From: Alistipes senegalensis
GTDB taxonomy: Bacteria; Bacteroidota; Bacteroidia; Bacteroidales; Rikenellaceae
Length of the DNA stretch: 45,315 nucleotides
Assembly: GCA_023664045.1 (NCBI GenBank)
Contig: JAMPGH010000001.1
Location: 793,072-838,386, forward strand
Reading direction: 5' to 3'
The position numbers and the translations under genes were made by a program. The notes under the pieces are model-generated. The model was not told the origin of the DNA. It ran no database searches and saw nothing but the letters and a program-made list of their open reading frames with translations. Shown here piece by piece: positions 106 to 37,998 of the stretch (position 1 is its first letter; every line of letters starts with the position of its first letter).

Positions 106-1044
106 CTACCGTTTGTGGCGGCGCGTGCGGGGAAGTCGTGGGAAGAGTTTGCGGAAATACGTCAGATAGACTCCGATGTTTCCGCCCGCGATCATCAGCG
201 TTACGGCGGAAATGATCAGCACGATTCCGCAACCGATTCGGAGCGTGAGAATTTCTCCGAAAATCAGAACTCCGAAAAATATGGCGGTTACCGGTTCCAG
301 AGCTCCGAGAATTGCCGTGGGTGTCGAGCCGATGTATTGAATGGCGCTCGTCGTACAGAGGAACGAGATTGCTGTGGGGAAAATTGCCAGAGCGACAAGA
401 TTGCCCCACAGATACCATTGGTTCGGCAGAATAAGCGTTCGTCCGAAGTCGACGCGGAAGAGGAAAAGTGCCAACCCGCAAAGCAGCATATAGAAAGTGA
501 TGGCGAGTGTCGGGATCTCCTTGAGTTTCGTTTGCCGGACACCGACAATGTAGATGGCATAGAAAAGTGCCGATACAAAAACCAGCAGCGTGCCCGTCAG
601 GCTTAGGGTGCTTCCGTCTCCGGTCTTGTATAACAGACCGATACCGACTATAGCCAGCAGGATACATAGTCCGGTCAGCAGGGTGCATTTTTCTTTGAAC
701 CCGACGGTCATGATCAGCGCCACAAGAATGGGATAGATGAAGAGCAAGGTCGATGCGATGCCGGCATCCATGTAGTTGTAGCTCAGAAAGAGCGTCAGCG
801 ACGAAATGGCGACCAGCAGTCCCATGATGATGAGTGGTATTATTTCGTCGTGCCGTATTTTGAAACTTCGTCCTCGGGTCCATAACATCGCACCCAGAAT
901 CGGAAGGGCGAACAGGTAACGGAACAGCAGGACCGAATCGGGATCCATGCCGGCGTCGTAGAGCGGCAGAGCGAAAAGCGGGTTCGTGCCGTAGGAGGCC
1001 GCCGCGATGGCGCCCAGCAGGTAGCCTTTGGCTTTCGAATTCAT
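106..1044 (-). CDS. EamA/DMT-family membrane transporter
   Basis: The protein has 312 residues and is almost entirely hydrophobic, with about ten predicted membrane helices. They form two halves of five, as in drug/metabolite transporters built from two EamA repeats (roughly residues 5-135 and 150-285). The family exports or imports small metabolites in the inner membrane; the substrate cannot be read from sequence. An in-frame extension reaches 1098, but a clear promoter (-7 box 1067-1074) lies inside it, so the start must be downstream. I chose the ATG at 1044; the ATG at 1053 is possible but only a few bases from the expected transcription start. The C-terminus is very basic (RLPRTRRHKR). 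I see no operon partner. Bases 1-105 beyond its stop hold nothing I can assign. Confidence 0.88.
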   Translation of the reverse strand: MNSKAKGYLLGAIAAASYGTNPLFALPLYDAGMDPDSVLLFRYLFALPILGAMLWTRGRSFKIRHDEIIPLIIMGLLVAISSLTLFLSYNYMDAGIASTLLFIYPILVALIMTVGFKEKCTLLTGLCILLAIVGIGLLYKTGDGSTLSLTGTLLVFVSALFYAIYIVGVRQTKLKEIPTLAITFYMLLCGLALFLFRVDFGRTLILPNQWYLWGNLVALAIFPTAISFLCTTSAIQYIGSTPTAILGALEPVTAIFFGVLIFGEILTLRIGCGIVLIISAVTLMIAGGNIGVYLTYFRKLFPRLPRTRRHKR

Positions 1045-1066
1045 TGCAGGCATAGTTCGAACGATG

Positions 1067-1099
1067 CAAAGATACGAATAAGCCGAGGGCAATGCCAAA
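1067..1099 (-). promoter_or_regulatory. Bacteroidetes-type promoter for the EamA gene
   Basis: On the minus strand a TTTG (1099-1096) is followed after 21 bases by TATCTTTG (1074-1067), matching the TTTG / TAnnTTTG promoter of Bacteroidetes. It sits 15-25 bases before the candidate start codons. Confidence 0.7.
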
Positions 1100-2456: not shown

Positions 2457-3158
2457 ATGAGATATTGGGTTATCTGCGGTTATTGGATCGGGGCGGTGGT
2501 ACTGCTGGCCTTGTTGCTGGTCAGTTTCGATTACGATTTCGGGCGGGCGCTATTCATCGCTTCGTCGATGTTGCCCGGCATGTTATGTGCGCAGTTTTTC
2601 CTGCCGCGAGCGTTGGCTGCGTCATGTCGCCGGGCCGTGGCCGTGGTGTGCGTGGCGATGGGTGCCGTTGTCGTAGAGTGGATGTCGATGCTGCTGGCTT
2701 ATCGTTATACGCGAGTCGCTGGCGAATTTTACGAAGATTTCCCGACGTTGTTTTCCAATCCGGTCTTTCTGTCGATCCTGCTTGCGGCATTCGTTCTTCC
2801 CGGCGAATTGCTGTCGCGATGGCTTCGGCAGCGACTGCCGCGTCCCGATAGCATTGCGTTCGTTTCCGAGCGACGCAGGGTAATGCTGAAATTCGCAGCG
2901 ATCGTCTATGTCGAGTCGAACGACAGCGAGGTCTTGCTCCATGCGGTCGACGGTGCCGTGTATCGTACGCGGACTCGCATATCCCAGTGGGAGCAGCAGT
3001 TGGATGATCGCTTCGTTCGGGTTCATCGCGCATATATCGTCAATGCCGATCATGCGACGGAGGTCTCGGCACAGTCCGTGGAGGTCGGCGGAATCCGGAT
3101 CGAGTTCTCCCGCAAATATCGCGAATCGGCTGTCGGACGGCTCTCTCGACGGGTATAG
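2457..3158 (+). CDS. Membrane-anchored LytTR-family transcription regulator
   Basis: The protein has 233 residues. Four predicted membrane helices (about 4-23, 31-49, 60-80 and 102-119) are followed by a short basic linker and a LytTR DNA-binding domain (about 132-230), recognised by a VYVES-type strand near 150-154, basic residues at 170-175 and the conserved FVRVHRAYIVN at 187-197. There is no receiver domain and no histidine kinase gene nearby, so this is a one-component regulator in which the membrane part probably senses the signal or anchors the DNA-binding domain; that role is inference. The start is an ATG 15 bases after the FISUMP remnant. The gene converges on the small RNA on the other strand, and the RNA's terminator hairpin would also lie in this gene's 3' region. 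Confidence 0.85.
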   Translation: MRYWVICGYWIGAVVLLALLLVSFDYDFGRALFIASSMLPGMLCAQFFLPRALAASCRRAVAVVCVAMGAVVVEWMSMLLAYRYTRVAGEFYEDFPTLFSNPVFLSILLAAFVLPGELLSRWLRQRLPRPDSIAFVSERRRVMLKFAAIVYVESNDSEVLLHAVDGAVYRTRTRISQWEQQLDDRFVRVHRAYIVNADHATEVSAQSVEVGGIRIEFSRKYRESAVGRLSRRV

Positions 3159-3244: not shown

Positions 3245-3276
3245 AAAAAACACTGTCCGGATCGAAATCCGGACAG
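3245..3276 (-). terminator. Intrinsic terminator of the small RNA
   Basis: Perfect stem CTGTCCGGAT / ATCCGGACAG (3276-3267 with 3262-3253) closed by a TTCG tetraloop and followed on the minus strand by six T residues. Confidence 0.8.
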
Positions 3277-3337
3277 CGCCCCGAAGGGTGTGAGTTGCGT
3301 CATCATCCCAGCTCCGAGCGTCCAGCGTTCGCCCGGA
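3245..3337 (-). ncRNA. Candidate structured small RNA, about 93 nt
   Basis: Read on the minus strand, a promoter (3343-3372) is followed by a compact transcript with three hairpins. SL1 is a seven-base-pair stem CCGGGCG/CGCTCGG (3336-3330 with 3320-3314, one G-U pair) closing a nine-base loop. A single-stranded linker (3313-3289) follows. SL2 is a CCC-TTCG-GGG tetraloop hairpin near 3288-3279. SL3 is a ten-base-pair perfect stem with a TTCG loop (3276-3253), extendable by G-U and C-G pairs, then six T residues (3250-3245): an intrinsic terminator. No protein gene lies downstream on this strand for 2 kb, so it is not a leader. I do not recognise it as 6S, SRP, tmRNA or RNase P RNA. A short ATG frame starts in the linker but runs through the terminator, so I do not call it coding. 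Confidence 0.6.
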
Positions 3338-3342
3338 TAGTG

Positions 3343-3372
3343 CAAAGATACAAAAATTCCCCCCCCCGCAAA
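3343..3372 (-). promoter_or_regulatory. Small-RNA promoter with a nine-G tract in its spacer
   Basis: Minus strand: TTTG (3372-3369), an 18-base spacer made of one C, nine G (3367-3359) and AATTTTTG, then TATCTTTG (3350-3343). The best other promoters in this window have spacers of 19 to 21 bases. Changes in the G tract would change the spacing directly. Confidence 0.6.
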
Positions 3373-3400: not shown

Positions 3401-3430
3401 CTTTTTGTGTTATAATTATAACATAAAAAG
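3401..3430. repeat. AT-rich inverted repeat, possible operator
   Basis: A perfect 16-base palindrome TGTTATAATTATAACA (3408-3423) is flanked by CTTTTTG and TAAAAAG arms, making a 30-base near-perfect inverted repeat. It stands out from the GC-rich surroundings. It lies about 70 to 90 bases upstream of the small-RNA start and just past the end of the hydrolase operon, so it could be a regulatory site or an AT-rich terminator. Confidence 0.45.
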
Positions 3431-36578: not shown

Positions 36579-36923
36579 ATGAATTGGTATTTGACAGTCA
36601 TCAAGGAACATTATGCGGACTTCAAGAGCCGTGCTCGTCGCAAGGAGTTCTGGATGTTCATGCTGATCAACTGGGTGATCGCCGTCGTTTTGGGCATCAT
36701 CGGCAGCCTGATCCACTTCGGGCTGCTCTCGTCGATCTACGGCCTCGCCGTGCTGGTTCCCTCCCTGAGCGTCGGCGTTCGCCGTCTGCACGACATGGGC
36801 AAGAGCGGCTGGTGGTACCTGATCTGCTTGGTTCCCGTGCTGGGCGCTATCTACCTGATCTACCTTTGGTGTCAGGACAGCCAGGCCGAAACCAACGAAT
36901 GGGGTGCCAATCCCAAAGCCTGA
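36579..36923 (+). CDS. DUF805 small inner-membrane protein
   Basis: The protein has 114 residues. The beginning (WYLTVIKEHYADFKSRARRKEFW) is the DUF805 signature, in which an aromatic, basic N-terminal stretch lies before three to four membrane helices (about 24-44, 50-66 and 80-98). VRRLHDMGKSGWWYL is the most conserved family motif and is complete here. The family is widespread in the inner membrane and its role is unknown. It sits 101 bases after proS and is followed by a strong terminator. Confidence 0.9.
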   Translation: MNWYLTVIKEHYADFKSRARRKEFWMFMLINWVIAVVLGIIGSLIHFGLLSSIYGLAVLVPSLSVGVRRLHDMGKSGWWYLICLVPVLGAIYLIYLWCQDSQAETNEWGANPKA

Positions 36924-37352: not shown

Positions 37353-37934
37353 ATGAACGTGCAGTCAAACGACCGGGCATTGCTCGACCGCTATCTTTCG
37401 GGGGACCGGAACGCCATTTCGCAACTCATCGAACGCCACAGCCGGCGTGTGCGCGATTACATCCGCATGATGGTCAAGGACCGCGACGCGGCCGAAGATA
37501 TTTTTCAGGAGACATTCATCAAAGCCGTGCGCGTCATCGACGAAGGCCGCTATACCGACAACGGGAAGTTCCTCTCGTGGATTCTGCGCATCGCCCACAA
37601 TCAGGTGATCGACTACTTTCGGGCGCGGCGACAGGAGAAAGCTGTCAACGAGGCCGACTCGGGTTACGATGTTTTCGGCACCCTCCGGCTCGCGGAGAAG
37701 ACCATCGAGGACGATCTGGTCGCCGACCAGACCTGTCGGGAAATTCGGGCGCTGGTGGAGATGCTGCCCGCCGAACAGCGCGAAGTCGTCATGATGCGCT
37801 ACTTCTCGGGACTGAGTTTCAAGGAAATCGCCGAACAAACGGGGGTCAGCATCAACACGGCGTTGGGACGCATGCGTTACGCCCTGATCAACATGCGGCG
37901 GATGATAAAAGAAAAAAACATGATATTGTGCTGA
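37353..37934 (+). CDS. ECF-type RNA polymerase sigma factor
   Basis: The protein has 193 residues. Sigma region 2 spans about residues 12-90, with DAAEDIFQETFIKAV for core binding and the promoter-melting WILRIAHNQVIDYFRARRQ. Region 4 spans about 130-185, with LPAEQREVVMMRYFSGLSFKEIAEQTGVSINTALGRMRYA as the helix-turn-helix. The acidic linker lies between. It directs RNA polymerase to a set of promoters I cannot identify. No classical anti-sigma factor with a membrane helix is adjacent; instead a 49-residue acidic protein follows 64 bases later. Confidence 0.93.
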   Translation: MNVQSNDRALLDRYLSGDRNAISQLIERHSRRVRDYIRMMVKDRDAAEDIFQETFIKAVRVIDEGRYTDNGKFLSWILRIAHNQVIDYFRARRQEKAVNEADSGYDVFGTLRLAEKTIEDDLVADQTCREIRALVEMLPAEQREVVMMRYFSGLSFKEIAEQTGVSINTALGRMRYALINMRRMIKEKNMILC

Positions 37935-37998
37935 GTTCTGCACAATATTCGCGCAGTTCGCTGCGTTATTCGGATAACAACATAAACAAGGAACGCCT

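Follow-up and report, generated by a model that had tools for sequence, protein, structure and literature searches.

A small RNA gene, here called RNA-1, lies on the minus strand at 3342-3245 of the 45,315-nt stretch of Alistipes senegalensis DNA that was analysed (the window). Its promoter is of the Bacteroidota type, in line with the B. fragilis consensus of TAnnTTTG (-7) and TTTG (-33) given in the accessible text of PMC7366714. The start site is probably the first base after TATCTTTG, 3342; the start at 3337 in a preliminary description of this DNA is also possible. That description had named a minus-strand promoter and three hairpins, two with UUCG loops and the last a ten-pair terminator stem with U6, and all of these were found (Table 1). 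Hairpin 1 has 8 pairs, one of them G-U. The terminator stem and its UUCG loop occupy 3276-3253 and are followed by UG and by six U at 3250-3245. A generic scan, with rules unfit for Bacteroidota promoters and for the RNA-1 tail, called neither a sigma-70 promoter nor the RNA-1 terminator. Runs similar to the nine G between the -33 and -7 boxes (window 3359-3367) were seen before apparent protein genes in two relatives, G018 and G011; such runs could vary in length and so switch promoters.

No same-strand gene follows for 2 kb, as had been stated: lytTR (2457-3158) and 1261-1824 are plus-strand, and the next accepted minus-strand gene is EamA (106-1098). The lack of a known RNA family was likewise upheld, Rfam at threshold giving three matches in the window and none at RNA-1. 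An azaaromatic (yjdF) riboswitch was rejected at 27.9 bits against a gathering threshold of 45, on the strand opposite to RNA-1. Elsewhere in the window, a DUF805b RNA (RF02914, 36511-36546) upstream of a DUF805 gene (36579-36923) is an ordinary known element.

Table 1. Positions of RNA-1, its parts and its neighbours (window coordinates), and of RNA-2 in the same genome
Feature	Position	Strand	Basis
LytTR-domain gene (lytTR), convergent neighbour, outside the RNA-1 gene	2457..3158	+	PF04397
RNA-1, inferred transcript, at most 98 nt	3245..3342	-	window sequence, fold, homologues
RNA-1 promoter: TTTG 3372-3369, nine-G spacer 3367-3359, TATCTTTG 3350-3343	3343..3372	-	window sequence, homologue alignment
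Hairpin 1, loop with GCUGGA	3313..3337	-	both-sided changes in 3 of 7 modelled pairs
Linker segment UGACGCAACUCACAC, complementary to the RNA-2 loop	3288..3302	-	duplex and accessibility scoring, paired-base scan
CCC-UUCG-GGG hairpin	3279..3288	-	window sequence; 12 of 14 copies with a stem like it
Intrinsic terminator, perfect ten-pair stem with U6	3245..3276	-	both-sided changes in 5 of 14 modelled pairs
Dyad TGTTATAATTATAACA, possible regulator site, centre some 74 bp upstream of the base that follows TATCTTTG	3408..3423		window sequence, alignment
RNA-2, own genome	C1:651,300-651,345 and upstream	minus	pattern search, alignment

Distribution and fold of the RNA-1 family

BLAST of 61 genomes yielded a second copy in the window's own genome, two copies each in G007 and G012, and one in G009. 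Of 180 genomes of the genus, 8 matched a strict pattern, with 14 copies among them. A model built from these 14 copies matched 13 of the 180 at E ≤ 0.01, and nine genomes were accepted. The genome gained by the model, G069, has three RNA-1 places, two of them truncated at contig ends. G181, G061 and G175 were dropped as weak, the alignments shown being hairpins without the linker core; G030, also weak, was dropped on its sequence. The family then counted 17 copies or fragments in 9 of the 180 genomes, two of them in the own genome. An order-wide sample of 393 genomes gave four model matches at E ≤ 0.01, the own genome and three from one other genus; outside the own genome no convincing RNA-1 was found in this sample, the alignments from the other genus resting mainly on the strong terminator hairpin. 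Among named genome contigs the RNA-1 core was present in 12 stretches, nine from Alistipes sp. and three from 'Bacteroidales bacterium isolate C35'. A CsrB/RsmZ-type decoy of CsrA was rejected, with no PF02599 (CsrA) match in the own assembly (86% complete) and 3 of 14 genomes positive in the control.

Single-sequence folding of a 101-nt piece gave a z of -3.98, with 0 of 200 shuffles as low; its minimum free energy structure is a rod with the 5' end paired to the 3' end. Hairpin 1 and the terminator both form in the 98-nt RNA (start after TTTG), where the linker is paired in place of the UUCG hairpin. The homologues favour the fold with hairpin 1 and the terminator. In the alignment of 14 sequences 98.7% of cells pair (26-47% in slid controls), and 35 cells are changed on both sides; the figure for shuffles is 12.3, and none of 500 comes up to 35. 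Changes on both sides affect 8 of 27 pairs, three in hairpin 1 and five in the terminator; 20 of 500 shuffles attain this number of pairs. The count of pair types showed no excess over shuffles (492 of 500). The case for the UUCG hairpin is weaker: 12 of 14 copies have 3-4 pairs there in a CCC/GGG-like stem, and at its place G169 has G-U pairs only and G189a no pairs. Compensatory change, proposed earlier as a check on all three stems, was thus found in hairpin 1 and the terminator and not established for the UUCG stem in these 14 sequences. The conserved structure of a free-standing small RNA gene is present in hairpin 1 and the terminator, and is not established for the linker and UUCG stems.

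Invariant columns make up 20 of 24 in the linker, 10 of 35 in the terminator and 8 of 27 in the hairpin 1 region. The strict search pattern fixed 15 linker bases, so that linker invariance is partly ascertained; the model search, free of this constraint, added G069 only, with one inserted linker base. The modelled linker pairs are invariant and hence give no covariation signal. The linker also holds GGAG and ATG (ATG ATG ACG CAA CTC), as might be expected of a leader, an attenuator or a small peptide gene, and one ATG is kept in the strict-pattern copies (GATG is within the pattern). However, the frames downstream differ among copies and no consistent same-strand gene follows RNA-1, and a leader or peptide gene is hardly credible.

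Genomic sites and neighbours

RNA-1 sites were assigned from codon-scored gene calls, shared protein families and tblastn, with family names from Pfam. Site 1, downstream of dapF and an alpha/beta hydrolase gene, holds six copies (window, G009, G076, G007a, G189a and G069 C7). Site 2, near an acetyl-CoA hydrolase-type gene, an EamA gene or both, also holds six: the second copy of the own genome, G169, G170b, G189b, G069 C13 and G012b, the last assigned via downstream genes shared with G170b. Site 3, upstream of a divergent suf operon, holds two (G012a and G170a), and three copies are single or unplaced (G007b, G170c and G069 C8). RNA-1 has its own promoter and terminator and no single downstream gene is tied to it; because its copies lie at four or more sites, the gene is free-standing. 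The self-contained gene of the preliminary description is therefore supported by a covarying family in which the promoter region and terminator are kept.

An EamA gene precedes an RNA-1 copy in G169, G170, G189 and G069. In the own genome, the 20-kb locus of the copy at the corresponding site (G000:C1 near 1,348,000) gave no EamA match; an EamA gene (window 106-1098) is found instead some 2.2 kb past the window copy, which looks like a sign of rearrangement.

Antisense or 3'-end effects on lytTR had been suggested from its convergent position. RNA-1 ends about 85 nt past the lytTR stop and does not overlap it. A lytTR match was obtained at 3 of the 17 RNA-1 loci: in the window, at G007 copy a (73.6% identity) and, in part, at G170 copy c (a 71-residue match). 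It was not matched at the other 14, among them the 20-kb locus of the own second copy; some of the 17 loci are short or break off close to the gene. A cis-antisense RNA of lytTR was rejected on the missing overlap and the unconserved neighbourhood, and control of lytTR by antisense or 3'-end action, for which the convergent gene at those three loci speaks, is highly improbable.

The unit copied with RNA-1 includes upstream DNA, which in most copies holds a dyad, GTTATNNNNATAAC; the dyad is unrecognisable at the copies in G076, G189a and G189b. Distinct dyad sites lie at RNA-1 copies in 9 of 13 cases (six genomes; overlapping matches merged). A similar dyad is found at window 37963-37978, right after an ECF sigma factor gene (37353-37934), and a dyad beside this gene is also kept in G012 and G170.

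This copied upstream region, the two to three copies in several genomes and the contig breaks at RNA-1 in G012 and G069 would suit a repeat-like or mobile element that spreads without function. Against this, positions are syntenic across species, the stems covary, and the promoter and terminator are kept. No adjoining transposase was noticed, the strict core was absent from viral contigs and the whole gene was without a match in a plasmid collection; carriage by phage and by plasmids was rejected on these searches. A functionless element is very unlikely.

A larger repeated intergenic element of about 400 bases was met at six loci (L187, L189, L190, L191, L192 and L195; G170, G012, G069 and G076). 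It has TCTGGTA...TTTACCAGA-type pairings and a terminator-like hairpin (GCAGCGGCAG/CTGCCGCTGC) holding (G)AGTTGCGTC. BLAST matched it in 4 of 12 genomes tried, the own genome being without it, and it gave no Rfam match above the gathering score.

RNA-2 and its complementarity to the RNA-1 linker

A second conserved small RNA-like gene, RNA-2, was found in 8 of the 9 RNA-1 genomes; it was not found in the G189 assembly (72% complete). Its discovery was not independent of RNA-1: the search was for the linker complement, GTTGCGTC, followed by five T within 8-38 bases. This gave 45 matches in the nine RNA-1 genomes, several of which are repeats of a single place where the T run is longer; the reversed control gave 10. 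The RNA-2 gene has TA(T/C)CTTTG and, upstream, a long stretch that is conserved; its 5' part is conserved poorly, and its terminator hairpin has the loop GUGUGAAGUUGCGUCACU(G/A)AA...GAAUUCUUC, in which the GUGUGAAGUUGCGUCACU segment is invariant. In an alignment of eight sequences (the G170 row, there identical to G012, omitted and a G032 row included) pairing in the terminator stem is complete (100%), and three of its pairs show changes on both sides; 15 of 500 shuffles had as many.

A convergent patatin-type gene follows RNA-2 in 9 of 9 loci read (eight genomes and the G032 homologue, L173). A DUF5723-type gene or fragment precedes it in 8 of 9, L173 starting too near a contig end; the Pfam names of these neighbours were assigned at the own locus. 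The RNA-1 model finds nothing in G032. Because RNA-2 also occurs there without RNA-1, its distribution looks broader, and RNA-1 looks like a multiplied, lineage-specific addition. Rfam at threshold gave no match in the six RNA-2 loci scanned. A 17-mer of RNA-2 was absent from viral contigs, and a looser motif pair gave 24 viral stretches, by eye apparently unrelated. A further RNA-2-type small RNA-like gene, with GAGUUGCGUCAC...GAAUUCUUC in its terminator hairpin, was seen at L168, L169, L170 and L171 (G023, G070, G072 and G032), adjoining and divergent from a small helix-turn-helix protein gene (HTH_3 in the two tested).

The RNA-2 terminator loop GUGUGAAGUUGCGUCA can pair with the RNA-1 linker UGACGCAACUCACAC over 14-15 bp with one bulge or mismatch in 8 of 8 genomes, RNA-1 UGACGCAACU/CACAC facing RNA-2 GUGUG/A/AGUUGCGUCA. 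Conserved complementarity to another small RNA, as in small RNA sponges or anti-sRNAs, is thus present in every genome where both were found. The linker had earlier been described as free to pair with targets; it is the most conserved part of RNA-1 (in part through the search pattern) and is complementary to the conserved RNA-2. The base inserted in the G069 linker stands opposite the bulged A of RNA-2. Opening both sites costs 5-12 kcal/mol and leaves a net energy of -9.5 to -16.9 kcal/mol (12 rows, 8 genomes). For the window copy this site pair was the best of 9,324, at -13.8 kcal/mol with accessibility counted. The best of 51 shuffled RNA-2 sequences, sampled at every second position, reached -5.3 against -11.4 for the true pair at the sampled positions. 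A paired-base scan with one bulge allowed gave 15 paired bases for RNA-2 and 12 for the next non-self place. The scan took in 12 pieces of the own genome on both strands, 191,010 bases in all or about 1/20 of the genome, with some of the pieces chosen for the linker decamer.

Raw scores did not set this pairing apart. Scored over their whole length, RNA-1/RNA-2 duplexes outdid every one of 300 shuffles in just 3 of 12 rows. In a raw duplex scan of 23,022 own-genome windows, 15 non-self windows among those listed fell below the RNA-2 loop value of -27.1, all within coding DNA or close to it. At the interface the 8 genomes show no compensatory change from one species to another, and copies of G012, G169 and G170 have A for U at one end of it, with one pair lost.

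Direct control of mRNAs in trans by the linker, with the RNA-2 match secondary or RNA-2 one target among several, is fairly unlikely. Multicopy base-pairing small RNAs are known in the phylum, FopS repressing susC-type mRNAs (PMC11697453, in excerpt), the linker is the part of RNA-1 most conserved, and the decamer complement is present in other hairpin elements too. In the own genome, however, the three exact non-self complements of the decamer all seem by eye to lie in coding DNA. Some coding sites of this kind recur, by eye, in the same gene of two genomes (L118/L138 and L121/L126); the comparison between loci covered those with the match on the locus plus strand.

The GA-N6-UC motif and its reverse complement could also be two orientations of one ancestral hairpin or protein-binding element with no mutual action, both orientations being present in several unrelated hairpin elements (L119, L122, L124, L131, L140 and L142). 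This is decidedly unlikely: the complementarity continues past the core, GUGUG facing CACAC, in 8 of 8 genomes with both RNAs, and an RNA of G195 also carries the complement of the second loop motif. That RNA, present in two copies with the same promoter type, holds GAAGAAUUC and GUGACGCAAC, which are complementary to the two conserved RNA-2 loop motifs and stand in antisense order.

A candidate decoy and known systems

RNA-1 is best read as a free-standing, multicopy, trans-acting small RNA that would pair with the RNA-2 loop, most likely as a decoy, with a probability of about 0.45. Hairpin 1 and the terminator, which covary, stand on either side of the nearly invariant linker, and UGACGCAACUCACAC would base-pair with the loop inside the terminator hairpin of the syntenic RNA-2. 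RNA-1 would then act as a 'sponge' that masks or removes RNA-2, and a regulator at the upstream dyad perhaps governs RNA-1. We infer from sequence that both RNAs are transcribed and bind in the cell, and likewise the direction of control between them.

A wider scheme is somewhat unlikely as a whole: a dedicated two-RNA circuit of Alistipes in which the older, syntenic RNA-2 has its terminator loop as active site, RNA-1 is a younger, duplicating and separately regulated antagonist that recognises this loop, and the G195 RNA is a second antagonist, on another scaffold, covering both loop motifs. If true, it would mean control by a free-standing RNA aimed at a terminator loop. Bacteroides has no obvious Hfq or ProQ homologue, and trans-encoded small RNA regulation there had barely been addressed, according to excerpts of PMC7366714. 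Within the portions available of a literature mostly outside subscription journals, no Alistipes small RNA study and no recognisable sponge-type small RNA of the Bacteroidota were found. The present analysis yields a new small RNA family together with a conserved candidate partner for it, and predicts their contact precisely, at 15 pairs.

Small RNA sponges, or anti-sRNAs, are a class of small RNAs complementary to the active region of another small RNA. RNA-1 resembles them in its complementarity to an active-looking region of a conserved small RNA, its titration of the partner being predicted only, and differs in that the predicted contact is in the loop of the partner's terminator hairpin. 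RNA I/RNA II is a loop-contact antisense system encoded on opposite strands of one gene. RNA-1 and RNA-2 may share with it a loop-loop contact (CGCAAC with GUUGCG, GA/UC closing both sides), but would act in trans from unrelated loci.

The sponge concept is named in the available part of PMC7366714. In what could be consulted of PMC11697453 and PMC7366714, FopS and GibS of Bacteroides are like RNA-1 in forming a paralogous Bacteroidales small RNA family with own promoters, an intrinsic terminator and an unpaired conserved seed. FopS has been deposited in Rfam (PMC11697453, in part); RNA-1 gave no FopS match there at threshold and none at relaxed settings, if the library copy includes the FopS model. 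On the same partial source, FopS has its seed at the 5' end and 14 copies, whereas in RNA-1, of which there are 2-3 copies, a hairpin stands at the 5' end and the seed is internal; and FopS targets susC-type mRNAs, whereas the candidate partner of RNA-1 is another small RNA.
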